Source: Candidatus Thalassarchaeum sp. (lineage in GTDB: Archaea; Thermoplasmatota; Poseidoniia; Poseidoniales; Thalassarchaeaceae). From it: 42,565 nt of DNA. The notes below the pieces were generated by a model that did not search any database, had not been told where the DNA came from, and saw only the letters and a list, made by a program, of their open reading frames with translations. Of the stretch, positions 2 through 22,220 are shown piece by piece. The stretch's first letter is position 1, and every line of letters starts with the position of its first letter. Where the stretch lies: NCBI GenBank assembly GCA_030748335.1, contig JASMMD010000010.1, positions 1-42,565 of the forward strand. Direction: 5' to 3'. The translations under genes were made by a program, and so were the position numbers.

Positions 2-364
2 TTGGAAGAAAAGGAAATGGCGTACATATTCGATGAACCATCCTTAGTAAAACTCAACTCATTGATTGACAGCATGGCCCCATCCAGTAGCGATTTACAG
101 TGCCCAATATGTGATGAGAAAATGGGAACTTTCTCTGTGCCCTACATTCCTGCAGATGATGAGACTCATCTTCGAATTAATCGTGTAGGTTATGATGCAG
201 ATAAAATTGTAGTTGGATGGGCATTGAACCTTGTTGTGGCTGGAGTGAAAGCAGCCATACCCAATGCCGAGGAAACAATTGATCTGGACTCCTGTGTTGA
301 TTGTAGGGTGATTTGGTTTGACGGCTCAGAGAAAAATAAGCTGGGCTCTGGCACAATAAACTAG
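2..364 (+). CDS. Small zinc-ribbon-like protein (CPIC...CxxC..WFD), possibly 5'-truncated by window edge; alternative ATG start at 17
   Basis: ORF with CPICDEKM ... DSCVDCRVIWFDG, a split zinc-ribbon pattern with a hydrophobic middle segment; same layout as the C-terminal part of the 20455-21471 protein. Confidence 0.6.
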   Translation: MEEKEMAYIFDEPSLVKLNSLIDSMAPSSSDLQCPICDEKMGTFSVPYIPADDETHLRINRVGYDADKIVVGWALNLVVAGVKAAIPNAEETIDLDSCVDCRVIWFDGSEKNKLGSGTIN

Positions 365-17196: not shown

Positions 17197-18009
17197 CTAA
17201 TGGGGAAGCCTGCGCCGCTCGAATGCGGCCTCCTCCATACCACTGAATCCTGAGGGGAGGATGAATGCGTGAACGTATCCGGTATCGATATGCGACAACT
17301 CATCAAGGGCACCTGAGACCACCCGCTCCTCCTCGGTCCCGAGGTCACTAAGTAGCATCCCCGGCCACTCCCTGATGGCCTCCTCGTCCGCTGAATCGTC
17401 CTCGGAGTACTGACTCATCCTCTCGAGCAGGGCCACGGCTTCGCCGGGCATCATCGGGCGCGGCTCCTCGACACCCATCCCGGTCGGGTCGAGATCGAGC
17501 AGCACTAGGGTGTGCAGCCCAGATTCCCTGTTGTCGCGAATCATCTGCAGAGGTGATGTCGGCAGATACTCGCCCACCGAGAAGGGAATGGTCACCTGAC
17601 GGCCGAACCTGTACGACTGCAGCCCGGACAGGGAGACGGCTAGGGCGGTGGCAGTCAGCCCGGGGATTACGTGGAAACCGATTCCCTCCTCGACACAACG
17701 ATCCTCCAGATCGATGTGCGTGGTCGCCTGCATCGGGTCGCCGACCACGAGTAGCGCCACGGGATCCAAGCGGGCGAGGTCGAGCAGCTTCTCGGGCTTC
17801 TCGACTTCGTCCCGCATCACTCTCTCCCACTCCCCAACAATCGACTCCAACCGCCCCTCCTCTCCGGGTGGTAGGACCGCAGTATAACCCTCTAGGAACC
17901 TCTTGGAGCATCCTCTGGCAACACTTCTGGCCCGTTCAGTCATGTGGTCGAGATCGCCCGGCCCGATGCCAATAAGCCAGAGCCCCGGGGCCACTTCCTC
18001 ATCCGTCAT
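17197..18009 (-). CDS. dphB: Diphthine synthase
   Basis: LWLIGIGPGDLDHMTERA, 'GDPMQATTHIDLEDRCVEEGIGFHVIPGLTATALAVSLSGLQSYRFGRQVTIPF'; start placed at MTDEEV within a longer ORF. Confidence 0.9.
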   Translation of the reverse strand: MTDEEVAPGLWLIGIGPGDLDHMTERARSVARGCSKRFLEGYTAVLPPGEEGRLESIVGEWERVMRDEVEKPEKLLDLARLDPVALLVVGDPMQATTHIDLEDRCVEEGIGFHVIPGLTATALAVSLSGLQSYRFGRQVTIPFSVGEYLPTSPLQMIRDNRESGLHTLVLLDLDPTGMGVEEPRPMMPGEAVALLERMSQYSEDDSADEEAIREWPGMLLSDLGTEEERVVSGALDELSHIDTGYVHAFILPSGFSGMEEAAFERRRLPH

Positions 18010-19222
18010 GGTGAAGCGCGCTGCCCCGCTGCCCACCATGAACGTGATGCGCCATCTCTCAGTCCCCAATCGGCAGGTCGAGCGTGCTCTAGGCATGATT
18101 CGCGAGCATGGGCTACTCGCTCCCGGCATGCGGGTGTTCGAGTCCGAGGATGGCGAATCTAGGCTCATACCGCTGGATTTCGGGGCCCCACCCTCGCTTC
18201 CCGACGGTCTAGCGGGATTCGAGGTCGTCGAGCATGAGGGAGAGCCCGACGAGAGGGTCGACACCGATTGGTGGGGCCACCTCAGGAACCTCTTGGGTGA
18301 CGAAGTCGTCGATGCCGGCGGCGAAGCGTGGCCATCCTCGCACGAGTTCTTCGGTGACATGATGATTGTTAGGTTAGATGAGGAGATTATCGAGTACTCA
18401 CGGGAGATCGCGACCGCCAAACTCCTTTCGCACCCTCACATCAGGCTGGTCCTGTCTGACAGGGGAGTACTAGGAGAGCTCAGGATCCGAGACCTGACAC
18501 CCATCGGGGCAAGGCTCGACGACGAGATCTTGCTGGACGTCATCCCGGACGACATCTCCAGCACCAGGGTGACGGTCAGGGAGTCCGGTAGGAGCATACT
18601 GTGCGACCCCACTCGGGCGTACTTCTCGACCAAGTTGCAGTCTGAGAGGCTTGAGACCCTGGCTCTAGCCAAGGAGCTGCGCTCCTTGCTAGGTCGACCA
18701 CTGCGCGTTTGCGACCCGTTCTGCGGGGTCGGTCCGGCTCTGGCCACTCTACTGGGGGAGCCCGACCTCGTGGGCGACGTGCTCGCTTCAGACCTCAACC
18801 CCGACGCAGTGGAGATGCTGCTGGACAATCTTCGTCGCTGGGACCGCAAGGAGTACCCGGCCGAGCCCGCCCCCATCTCAAGGCTCCACGAGGACAGGAT
18901 AGCAGGGCTGGCGGATGCGACCAAACTGCAGCACGACCCCAACCTCGCCGGTCGTTGGGACATGATTCTGGTCAATCTGCCACACCGGACCATCGAGTTC
19001 CTACCTTCTCTCGTGCCCCTGCTCGACAGGACGGGACCGAGCATGGTTAGGGGGAGGGTGATAGCGGCTGAGGCTGACATCCCTGAGGCCGACCGCGCGA
19101 TACGCCAGGCTCTGCCGCCAAGACTCGAGGGGATGCCCGAACCGTCGCTGCGAATCAAGCGCGACTACAGCTCCACGCTCCGTCTTTGTTCGTTTGAGGC
19201 ATGGTTGGCCCCCACGCCGTAG
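18008..19222 (+). CDS. Class I SAM methyltransferase, Trm5/TYW2-like tRNA methyltransferase
   Basis: 'LRVCDPFCGVGPALATLL', 'ASDLNPDAVEMLLDNLRRW', 'DMILVNLPHRTIEFL' Trm5-type motifs; alternative start at 18038. Confidence 0.82.
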   Translation: MVKRAAPLPTMNVMRHLSVPNRQVERALGMIREHGLLAPGMRVFESEDGESRLIPLDFGAPPSLPDGLAGFEVVEHEGEPDERVDTDWWGHLRNLLGDEVVDAGGEAWPSSHEFFGDMMIVRLDEEIIEYSREIATAKLLSHPHIRLVLSDRGVLGELRIRDLTPIGARLDDEILLDVIPDDISSTRVTVRESGRSILCDPTRAYFSTKLQSERLETLALAKELRSLLGRPLRVCDPFCGVGPALATLLGEPDLVGDVLASDLNPDAVEMLLDNLRRWDRKEYPAEPAPISRLHEDRIAGLADATKLQHDPNLAGRWDMILVNLPHRTIEFLPSLVPLLDRTGPSMVRGRVIAAEADIPEADRAIRQALPPRLEGMPEPSLRIKRDYSSTLRLCSFEAWLAPTP

Positions 19223-19223
19223 G

Positions 19224-19233
19224 CATATTTATC
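19224..19233 (+). promoter_or_regulatory. Candidate TATA box (catatttatc) about 30 nt upstream of ATG 19258
   Basis: AT-rich archaeal TATA-like element after GC-rich trm5-like 3' end; spacing compatible with a (near-)leaderless transcript. Confidence 0.45.
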
Positions 19234-19257
19234 GCTCCAATCACTATCAAAATAGAC

Positions 19258-19542
19258 ATGCCCGCTCCTCTTCTCGAACTTCTTTGTTGTTTGTTGGATA
19301 TAGGGTCAACTGCCGCGATGGCTGGTGGTTTGAATTCAGCAATGACTCCTAGTACCAAATTGAATACCCCCCAGCAAAGACGCGCCCAGCAAGTCAGAAC
19401 ATGCGCATTCGACGGCTGCAACGCCCTGTCATTCAGATCCACTGACCACTGCTGGAGACATCAGGACGAACCCCTCTCAGACCCAGAACCGGAGCCCGAG
19501 CCCGAAGCAGAAGCCAACTGGTGGGAAGAAGAATCGGATTGA
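19258..19542 (+). CDS. Small protein with C-terminal Cys/His knuckle and acidic PE-rich/NWWEEESD tail
   Basis: ORF 19201-19542; C-terminus 'CAFDGCNALSFRSTDHCWRHQDEPLSDPEPEPEPEAEANWWEEESD'; ATG 19258 follows TATA-like element. Confidence 0.7.
   Translation: MPAPLLELLCCLLDIGSTAAMAGGLNSAMTPSTKLNTPQQRRAQQVRTCAFDGCNALSFRSTDHCWRHQDEPLSDPEPEPEPEAEANWWEEESD
19420..19542 (+). repeat. Copy 1 of knuckle + PE linker + WW-tail module
   Basis: 55 nt identical to 19871-19925, then one mismatch and further identity; tail portion 19498-19533 matches 20406-20441 with 1 mismatch. Confidence 0.95.
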
Positions 19543-19552
19543 TGAGACCATC

Positions 19553-19987
19553 ATGAAAATTTCAACAAAACAATATTTTGAACTTGGGATGCTTATCTAC
19601 ATGCTGCCAGCAGCCCTCATGGGTATTGGAGGTGGCTCGGCCACCACACTCCTCGGCTCGTTTACCATGGCATACATGGGGGGACTGATTCCTTGTATCA
19701 TTGGGATTGTTTTATTATCGCGCGACGAAGAATATCGACCTCACTCACTCTTCATTCTTACACAACAAGAACGCGACCAACTGAGGGAAGATGAGATTAG
19801 ACCCAAGATTGAGACGTCCCCTACAGAAAGACAAAATAAACTCAGTCAAAATTGTTCTAGAGAGGGTTGTAACGCCCTGTCATTCAGATCCACTGACCAC
19901 TGCTGGAGACATCAGGACGAACCCCCCTCAGACCCAGAACCGGAGCCCGAGGCAGAGGGCAACTGGTGGGAAGAACAAACGGAGTGA
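19553..19987 (+). CDS. Small membrane protein with C-terminal Cys/His knuckle and NWWEEQTE tail
   Basis: Two hydrophobic segments, then 'CSREGCNALSFRSTDHCWRHQDEPPSDPEPEPEAEGNWWEEQTE'. Confidence 0.78.
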   Translation: MKISTKQYFELGMLIYMLPAALMGIGGGSATTLLGSFTMAYMGGLIPCIIGIVLLSRDEEYRPHSLFILTQQERDQLREDEIRPKIETSPTERQNKLSQNCSREGCNALSFRSTDHCWRHQDEPPSDPEPEPEAEGNWWEEQTE

Positions 19988-19991
19988 TGTT
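19871..19991 (+). repeat. Copy 2 of knuckle + PE linker + WW-tail module, through stop codon into next gene's translation-start region
   Basis: Near-identical to copy 1; 19961-19991 matches 20424-20454 with 1 mismatch, spanning the TGA. Confidence 0.95.
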
Positions 19992-20450
19992 GTGGAGAAC
20001 GAGCAGGAGCAGGAACTCCTTTCCGATAACGAACAAGAACCCAAAGCGGAACCCGAGCCTGTATTTGCTAGGGGCTCCAGGAGGATTCACCCACTTCAGG
20101 TAGTGGCAACCCTGTTGATTACGATAGCGCTCTTTCTCTTTCACGCCGGCTCAGCTCCGACTTGTGATTATGGGGACCCTCCCTCTCCTTGGGAGTTACA
20201 TGGCGTGTGGGAATTTGACGAACCAGACTGTGAACCCGACGGATGGGACGAATGGGGCGATGACTTCCTAGACGCCACTGGCTTCTCCAAGTCGACAAAA
20301 AACATCATCGGTTTTGTATTCTTCATGTTGGCTTTCTATTGTTGGTCGTACCACCGCGAGACTCAGAAGAACGAAGAGCCTGAGAAATTACCAGAATCTT
20401 TCTCCGAGCCCGAAGCAGATGCCAACTGGTGGGAAGAAGAAACGGAGTGA
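19992..20450 (+). CDS. Small two-TM membrane protein with NWWEEETE tail (no knuckle)
   Basis: GTG start after repeat junction; 'VVATLLITIALFLFHAG' and 'NIIGFVFFMLAFYCWSY' TM segments; C-terminus 'SEPEADANWWEEETE'. Confidence 0.72.
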   Translation: MENEQEQELLSDNEQEPKAEPEPVFARGSRRIHPLQVVATLLITIALFLFHAGSAPTCDYGDPPSPWELHGVWEFDEPDCEPDGWDEWGDDFLDATGFSKSTKNIIGFVFFMLAFYCWSYHRETQKNEEPEKLPESFSEPEADANWWEEETE

Positions 20451-20454
20451 TGTT
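20406..20454 (+). repeat. Copy 3 (tail only) of the WW-tail repeat
   Basis: GAGCCCGAAGCAGATGCCAACTGGTGGGAAGAAGAAACGGAGTGATGTT matches copies 1 and 2. Confidence 0.93.
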
Positions 20455-21471
20455 ATGAAAAAGGACGGCACGGTTCAGGGATACATTGGGGCCGGGATAG
20501 TTTTCTATTGGTTAGGAAGCCCGTGGTGGCCTTATTTATCCGCACTTGATGACCCTGATCGCAACTGTGCCCCCATGGGTTGCTACGATATTTTTATCGT
20601 CCCGTTCATCTTTCTGTTTGTTTTATTCTGTACATTCATATCGTTCCTCTTCTGTAGATTTCTTGGGCGGATCTATTACGAAAATAGGATGTCGAGTGCG
20701 AAATATTCGAGCGCCTGGGGCCCGGAGCGCGCGGAATGTCCTCGTTGCACAAATAAGAGTGGAAAGTCAAACCGCAAGCTCACCTACTATCCATCAGACT
20801 CCGGTGTTATCAACTACTGGGAAAACAGGATACGCCGCCTTGGCACATATCGCTGTGGCCGGTGCGATGGAGAACTCATCAACGCAAAGCAGGCCGCGTA
20901 TGCCTTCGAAAATCACCCTATCACTCCTAATGAAATCCTCGAGCAGGGCTCTCCGTGCGGTTTGGACTGCCCCATATGCTCATCGGAGATGGTTGAGACC
21001 ACCCTGCTTCATATCAGGAAGAAGGAATCATACGGCCTGCCCGGATCCGTACCTAGCCCAAGCCACCCTGTGATTGACGCCATCGTGCTGGGTATTGTCG
21101 TCTTTGATTTTCTATCTCACCAGCAGCTAGAGAAGAAGGATAACCGAACTGAGGCGATCAAACTCAACGGTTGTACCGATTGCGGCTCTTTTTGGTTCGA
21201 CTACTTCGAGATGTCCGCAGTCGAGAGCGCCGCCAAAGTCACCGAGGCGGATTCAGCATCCTTGGAGATGCTGGTGGAGAGGGAGAGAGGCGTGTCCGAG
21301 CGTGAACCATCTAGACAGGCCCGAACCCGAGCCCGCCGCGCCTGGTCCGGAGGAAGGGCGCAGAACACAAACTGCCTCCACATCGACAATAGGACAAGCA
21401 AGAAGTGCCGCAGGGTCACCTATCGAAGCAGTGAGTACTGCTACGTGCACCAATCACAGGGATCCAAATGA
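20455..21471 (+). CDS. Membrane-anchored multi-zinc-motif protein (CPRC/CGRC ribbon, split CPIC...CTDC ribbon, C-terminal Cys/His knuckle)
   Basis: TM segment 'IFIVPFIFLFVLFCTFISFLF'; 'CPRCTNKS...YRCGRCDGEL'; 'CPICSSEM...NGCTDCGSFWFDYFE'; 'CLHIDNRTSKKCRRVTYRSSEYCYVHQ'. Confidence 0.78.
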   Translation: MKKDGTVQGYIGAGIVFYWLGSPWWPYLSALDDPDRNCAPMGCYDIFIVPFIFLFVLFCTFISFLFCRFLGRIYYENRMSSAKYSSAWGPERAECPRCTNKSGKSNRKLTYYPSDSGVINYWENRIRRLGTYRCGRCDGELINAKQAAYAFENHPITPNEILEQGSPCGLDCPICSSEMVETTLLHIRKKESYGLPGSVPSPSHPVIDAIVLGIVVFDFLSHQQLEKKDNRTEAIKLNGCTDCGSFWFDYFEMSAVESAAKVTEADSASLEMLVERERGVSEREPSRQARTRARRAWSGGRAQNTNCLHIDNRTSKKCRRVTYRSSEYCYVHQSQGSK

Positions 21472-21472
21472 G

Positions 21473-21548
21473 TGGCGCCCCGACCGGGATTTGAACCCGG
21501 GTCGCAGCCTCGACAGGGCTGCATGATAGGCCACTACACCATCAGGGC
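21473..21548 (-). tRNA. tRNA-Asp(GTC), CCA encoded
   Basis: Reverse complement GCCCTGATGGTGTAGTGGCCTATCATGCAGCCCTGTCGAGGCTGCGACCCGGGTTCAAATCCCGGTCGGGGCGCCA; 7-bp acceptor, anticodon stem CAGCC/GGCTG with loop CTGTCGA. Confidence 0.95.
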
Positions 21549-21626: not shown

Positions 21627-22220
21627 ATGGACGACACCCCTCTTGTCATCGATGTCATCGACAATGGGGGCCAGTGGACGCACCGTGAGTGGCGGATGCT
21701 GCGCTACCTCGGCGTCGATACCCAGATCCTACCCAACAAAACCCCTCTAGACGAGCTCCGCGAGGTCGACGGGCTCATCCTGTCGGGAGGTGCGGCCCGG
21801 GTCGGCCTGACTGGCGAGTTGGGCAACTGCGGGGGCTACCTCGGCCTAGACGTTCCAATCCTCGGGATTTGCGCCGGCCACCAGTTCATGGCCGGTTTCT
21901 ACGGAGGCAGGGCGGCCGAGGCACCAAAACCGGAGTTCGGAGCCGCGACGATAACGCTCGTCGATGGCGGTGGGGCGATGTTCGAGGGGACGCCTGACAA
22001 GCAGACAGTATGGGAGAGCCACAACGACGAGGTCGTACAGGCCCCTCCCGGTTTCGTGATAACGGCGCAAAGTGAGTCCTGCGAGGTTCAGGGGATGGAG
22101 AACGAGGCTGGTGACCGATTCGGGCTGCAGTTCCATCCCGAAGTGAATGACTCGGAGTACGGCGCGAGGATTTTCGAGAACTTCGTCACAGTGTGCAAAC
22201 GGGCCCATAGGGCCCGCTGA
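21627..22220 (+). CDS. guaAA: GMP synthase (glutamine-hydrolysing) glutamine amidotransferase subunit
   Basis: 'VIDNGGQWTHREWRMLRYLGV', 'ILGICAGHQFMAGFYGG' nucleophile motif, 'GLQFHPEVNDSEYG' His/Glu motif. Confidence 0.93.
   Translation: MDDTPLVIDVIDNGGQWTHREWRMLRYLGVDTQILPNKTPLDELREVDGLILSGGAARVGLTGELGNCGGYLGLDVPILGICAGHQFMAGFYGGRAAEAPKPEFGAATITLVDGGGAMFEGTPDKQTVWESHNDEVVQAPPGFVITAQSESCEVQGMENEAGDRFGLQFHPEVNDSEYGARIFENFVTVCKRAHRAR

Follow-up and report, generated by a model that had tools for sequence, protein, structure and literature searches.

The gap between a tRNA methyltransferase gene and tRNA-Asp in Candidatus Thalassarchaeum sp. is probably a slot in which genes are swapped by recombination and whose products are membrane adaptor or sensor proteins; the recombination half of this claim is stronger than the functional half. 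The window analysed here is a 42,565-nucleotide stretch of DNA, whose positions are used throughout. A preliminary description of this DNA had reported four co-directional ORFs between a methyltransferase-like gene and tRNA-Asp, and the layout proved to be as claimed (+ strand, 19258-21471), including the TATA-like element at the start of the block and the single nucleotide between the ORF4 stop codon (21469-21471) and the CCA end of the tRNA. The block was also AT-rich as described, with a GC content of 0.50-0.53 vs ~0.60 in the flanks and a GC3 of 0.55 vs 0.71. The features of the slot and its flanks are as follows.

17903..19222, + strand: left flank, Trm5/TYW2-like tRNA methyltransferase gene (TRM), with PF25133 (TYW2_N_2) and PF02475 above cutoff, syntenic in relatives; coordinates are those of the longest ORF, and the true start may be downstream
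19224-19233, + strand: TATA-like element CATATTTATC, ~25 nt 5' of the ORF1 ATG
19258-19542, + strand: ORF1, 94 aa, with N-terminal hydrophobic segment, knuckle, PEPEPE linker and NWWEEE tail
19402..19461, + strand: predicted zinc knuckle of ORF1, C-x4-C-x10-C-x2-H (profile A1)
19483..19536, + strand: PEPEPE/NWWEEE tail of ORF1 (profile A3)
19553-19987, + strand: ORF2, 144 aa, with predicted TM hairpin, knuckle, acidic linker and NWWEEQ tail
19853..19912, + strand: predicted zinc knuckle of ORF2 (profile A1)
19928..19984, + strand: tail of ORF2 (tail profile A3)
19992-20450, + strand: ORF3 (GTG start), 152 aa, with acidic N-terminus, TM segment, Cys-containing loop, TM segment and NWWEEE tail, knuckle absent
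20406..20457, + strand: tail-junction DNA, 52 nt, identical in G007, where another gene precedes it; the exchanged block has its left edge here
20455-21471, + strand: ORF4, 338 aa, with TM hairpin, double TFIIB-type zinc ribbon and C-terminal long knuckle
20737..21210, + strand: double zinc-ribbon core of ORF4, C95 to E252, with a hydrophobic stretch between; invariant C/W/F/D/E columns in a 15-sequence alignment
21373..21450, + strand: C-terminal knuckle of ORF4, C-x10-C-x10-C-x2-H (profile A2)
21473-21548, - strand: intact tRNA-Asp (gtc), which anchors the slot on the right (ARAGORN)
21627..22220, + strand: right flank, class I glutamine amidotransferase gene (GAT), PF00117, syntenic in relatives

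The minus-strand orientation of tRNA-Asp turns its 3' end towards the cassette. Beyond the amidotransferase gene come one gene for a small, zinc-ribbon-like protein rich in Cys and one for an RFC-like protein. CTTATC-like boxes also follow the methyltransferase stop in the relatives' loci L036, L037, L038 and L048, with CTTATTT in L045, and the spacing of CATATTTATC, a putative functional element, suggests that the transcript would be leaderless.

The variability of the slot was established by comparing 20 loci from relatives across the same interval; the genus relatives (12) are mostly MAGs, 66-97% complete, and complete genus loci are few. The interval was near-empty in G012 (72 bp), G015 (11 bp), G017 (19 bp) and G033 (35 bp), held ORF1 only in G004 and carried ORF1-ORF4 in G005. 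A single MAG, G006, yielded three alleles (ORF1-ORF3-ORF4; ORF1-ORF3-490 aa gene; ORF1-466 aa gene) that differ in their genes while their flanks are 93-97% alike, and that may partly reflect MAG mixing. An S15-peptidase lipoprotein gene lies 5' of ORF1 in the G007, G009 and G011 slots and is also present in the G002 slot; the G010 slot, spread over two contigs, holds ORF1, an ORF2-like gene, a DUF3592-type gene and ORF4. Of 40 genomes, three (G006, G008 and G010) had the DUF3592-type gene, always in the slot, and in most loci of the genus the first such slot gene was ORF1. The gene pool is small: besides ORF1-4 and the S15-peptidase lipoprotein it comprises the DUF3592-type gene and a gene of 470-490 aa. 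The earlier view of a lineage-specific variable block was upheld by this comparison of the tRNA-Asp locus across genomes, with syntenic flanks, empty sites in relatives and contents that differ both between and within species.

Several alleles showed individual peculiarities. Two G006 genes (L037 4064-5536 and L038 936-2336) encode a common C-terminal domain behind different N-termini, with a DUF3592-like part and NWWEG in one case and a knuckle and LWWTGED in the other, an arrangement that looks like domain joining at the tail; in L037 a frameshift seemingly splits the DUF3592 part. The amidotransferase gene of G006:C52 (L038 210-803) showed 92% DNA vs 71% protein identity, suggesting a frameshift in this allele. 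The near-empty G012 site (L044 9840-9911) has what may be the remnant of a tail, namely a TGGTGGGAG stretch with GAGTGAGTGGCGCC after it at the tRNA. The G002 allele (L039 1765-2709) is incomplete because a run of N, an assembly gap, interrupts its lipoprotein gene.

Transfer between species was evident from ORF4, whose DNA is 96.6-97.0% identical between the window and G005, G006 and G007, whereas the flanking genes U5, TPM, TRM and GAT show 71-81% DNA identity between the window and G005/G007. Correspondingly, dS was 0.023-0.051 for ORF4 vs 1.3-1.8 for GAT in the window-G005 and window-G007 pairs. Given this near-identity and low dS across species with diverged flanks, we conclude that ORF4 was exchanged recently. 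Both edges of the exchanged block could be located: against G007 and against G005, the sequences change from unrelated to ~100% identical at the tail DNA (20406-20457), although the preceding gene differs, and on the right the identity is down to ~70-85% no more than ~100 bp past the tRNA. For G002, identity is 93% on the GAT side and 73% on the TRM side, and the tract crosses or abuts the tRNA. The position of these edges, at tail DNA and past the tRNA, indicates homologous recombination. The tail DNA, which is coding, recurs at gene junctions as well as marking one edge of an exchanged block. In the same order, the Poseidoniales, single-locus overwrite replacement by horizontal transfer has been reported for proteorhodopsin (PMC6461757); there, too, a resident locus is replaced by the copy of another lineage, but the slot differs in that gene number and order change and in having an internal repeated junction.

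The preliminary description had read all four proteins as combinations of a C-x4-C-x10-C-x2-H knuckle, a linker and an NWWEEE tail. Their modular build is supported, but the modules are not on every protein: this knuckle occurs in ORF1 and ORF2 only, ORF4 having the longer C-x10-C-x10-C-x2-H form and ORF3 none, and the tail is present on ORF1-3 and missing from ORF4. The knuckle and linker DNA of ORF1 and ORF2 is 94% identical over 95 nt, and 62 nt of tail DNA are common to ORF1, ORF2 and ORF3 at 82-85%, both far beyond chance. Hydropathy indicated one strong hydrophobic segment in each of ORF1-3 and two in ORF4, additional TM segments being assigned by eye. When 293 genomes of the phylum were searched with the knuckle profile, 31 gave matches: 28 belong to Thalassarchaeaceae and two to the sister family, and one was marginal. 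The knuckle is carried by many proteins, at either terminus and often beside TM segments; the predicted zinc knuckle is a lineage module of Thalassarchaeaceae that occurs genome-wide.

The NWWEEE tail, by comparison, is nearly private to the slot. Its profile identified 24 sites in 60 genomes, 22 of which lie between the methyltransferase gene and tRNA-Asp (assigned by the methyltransferase side only for G008, G010:C33 and G025:C120, and by the tRNA side only for G025:C32); the two others are G005:C9, a relative of ORF3, and G015:C15. Diverged tail-like ends were also present in genus g7 at another locus, and therefore the tail peptide itself appears to be kept. GAA is the first Glu codon after WW in 18 of 19 tail copies; GAA accounts for 23% of Glu codons in flanking genes and 55% in cassette genes, and the bias at the tail Glu is consistent with DNA copying, though cassette genes are richer in GAA overall. 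The G005:C9 gene (L121 1492-1974) encodes a diverged ORF3 homologue (52%) beside a UvrC-like gene and retains an NWWED tail. Genus g7 has, at a conserved site (L092 6251-6529; L093 5483-5767), a knuckle gene that resembles ORF1 and ends in a WW tail, flanked by an NDK/IF2-like cluster with a lipoprotein on one side and an L7Ae-like gene on the other.

ORF4 belongs to a paralogue family with a double TFIIB-type ribbon core and a knuckle at the N-terminus, the C-terminus or both. Its predicted metal sites are invariant: the C/P/C and C..C..WFD..E columns did not vary across 15 aligned ORF4-family sequences, and ORF4 contains the CPxC...CxxCGxFWFDxxE ligand pattern of zf-TFIIB. Carriers of ORF4 homologues include Ca. 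Thalassarchaeum betae and the MGII MAGs MED-G34, RS814 and CM1_200m.P32, which places the window in Thalassarchaeum (MGIIb Poseidoniales) or close to it. The 3' part of a second ORF4-like double-ribbon protein, 27% identical to ORF4 and close to a knuckle paralogue in G007:C24, is located at window positions 2-361. The omega of ORF4 was 0.5-1.8 (near 1, not shown to exceed 1) vs 0.03-0.07 for the amidotransferase, and 20 of the 38 variable ORF4 residues fell in the 97 membrane/loop residues (Fisher p = 0.001, regions drawn post hoc); the knuckle and the second ribbon hardly varied. Because of this range of omega and the post hoc grouping, diversifying selection on ORF4 is suggested and not claimed more firmly. 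The G005 ORF4 has an in-frame nonsense codon. An AlphaFold model of ORF4 from three near-identical rows was uninformative (pLDDT 35).

No curated family explained the slot proteins, in line with the earlier statement that no recognised defence, toxin or transport family accounts for the block. ORF4 scored 18.5 bits against zf-TFIIB (PF13453; cutoff 22), and it shares the CPxC and CxxCGxFWFDxxE signatures with this family, as do its paralogues; unlike zf-TFIIB, however, its ribbon is doubled and split by a hydrophobic stretch, with a TM hairpin and a knuckle added. The knuckles resemble DUF5763 (PF19067), WRC (PF08879) and Zf_WRKY19 (PF24906) in the spacing of three Cys and C-x2-H, but the full-length slot proteins matched none of the three in the Pfam scan, and the matches of single knuckle peptides were weak and below cutoff (best E 0.00085 for DUF5763, 0.021 for WRC and 0.012 for WRKY19; ORF1 knuckle vs WRKY19 10.9 bits, cutoff 27); the slot knuckles are moreover archaeal and joined to TM segments. 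The ORF4 knuckle peptide had no Pfam match, and PDB sequence searches with both knuckle profiles found none. A G010 slot gene, absent from the window, matched DUF3592 (PF12158) above cutoff (31.1 vs 25.3 bits), but differs from this family by an outer-domain insert and by ending in the slot's NWWEAQTE tail. RseC_MucC for ORF2 and DUF5993 for ORF3 were rejected, since both matches were below cutoff and covered the hydrophobic segment only. A virus or phage origin was likewise set aside, as ORF3 and ORF4 had no relatives in IMG/VR and ORF2 and ORF4 none in phage records; ORF1 had one IMG/VR match of 15 residues. The literature searched held no account of the tRNA-Asp slot locus and none of DUF5763.

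Fast interspecies exchange, presence/absence polymorphism and a concentration of variation in the membrane/loop parts of membrane proteins would all suit a locus for anti-virus defence or superinfection exclusion, in which interchangeable membrane effectors are combined with cytoplasmic zinc sensors. We consider this somewhat unlikely, given that PADLOC returned no defence-system match for the slot and that no nuclease, NTPase or known effector is among its genes. A niche-dependent nutrient or zinc function of the envelope, in which the slot proteins would be accessory to uptake or sensing together with the S15-peptidase lipoprotein of some alleles, is improbable. The modules are of a zinc-binding type, the lipoprotein occupies the G002, G007, G009 and G011 slots, and zinc transporters vary with depth in Poseidoniales (PMC6461757), but the Cys/His sites resemble structural knuckles, no transporter or enzyme is common to all alleles and the lipoprotein is missing from most of them.

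The slot is like tRNA-associated genomic islands in having variable accessory genes that abut a tRNA 3' end, AT-rich content, interspecies transfer and presence/absence among close relatives; it is unlike them in that its turnover is apparently anchored in tail-coding DNA and the flanks. The suggestion that the block is accessory DNA inserted at the 3' end of the tRNA was not supported: the longest match to tRNA-Asp in the 3.6 kb to its left was 9 nt (chance mean 8.9), no second tRNA-Asp copy or fragment was found at the left edge, no integrase ORF was recognised in the slot intervals read, no recombinase was among the Pfam-scanned slot proteins, and the block is bounded by tail DNA and the tRNA/flank. 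An att/integrase island was rejected on the same repeat and integrase results, and since integrase and att-like tRNA duplicate are both missing, homologous recombination through tail DNA and the tRNA/flank is likely rather than site-specific integration. A degenerate or non-autonomous integrative element, with its integrase in trans and its att repeat lost, would share the site, base composition and variable cargo, but is quite doubtful in view of the same results, of a block edge at tail DNA instead of a fixed left junction, and of the lack of convincing relatives in viral and phage collections; a rare mobile element that leaves neither integrase nor repeat may also be involved. Neutral turnover, in which ORFs under weak selection drift in a gap that tolerates recombination and duplication spreads the tail incidentally, agrees with the omega of ORF4, the G005 nonsense codon and the viability of empty sites, but is likewise quite doubtful, as the metal-site columns are invariant in all copies and paralogues and the tail peptide is retained outside the slot and, diverged, in genus g7.

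For the preferred reading, a gene-swap slot for membrane adaptor or sensor proteins, we infer the recombination mechanism, membrane topology, docking role and selective agent as follows. The gap between the methyltransferase gene and tRNA-Asp carries zero to four small membrane-protein genes, in some genomes with a lipoprotein hydrolase. Having no integrase of their own, these genes would be gained, lost and swapped between species through homologous recombination at the tRNA/flank on one side and at the flank or the repeated tail-coding DNA of gene junctions on the other. Judged from their sequences, the proteins would be zinc adaptors or sensors that are anchored in the cytoplasmic membrane, face the cytoplasm and have exchangeable outer parts. 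Their Cys-containing loops would lie outside, and the zinc knuckles or ribbons would lie inside together with the acidic NWWEEE tail; knuckle and tail may serve as docking modules through which interchangeable membrane parts assemble into a single adaptor or sensor complex. An outside pressure, most likely viruses or competitors, would drive both the exchange and the variation of the loops. We tentatively suggest, as a possibility, that the tail DNA is at once the code of the docking tail and the recombination joint of an integrase-free archaeal cassette system, in which captured genes would gain a tail and plug into the membrane complex; compared with an integron-like cassette array, the tail DNA repeated at gene junctions might correspond to the recombination sites between cassettes, but it is coding and would need no site-specific recombinase.

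The uncultured MGII archaea abound in surface seawater, and the slot is a concrete site of between-species genome exchange in them. The NWWEEE tail peptide is a possible bait for finding partners, and the knuckle a lineage-specific module. Should the tail DNA prove to be the joint, it would offer a simple route to modular protein systems without a dedicated recombinase.
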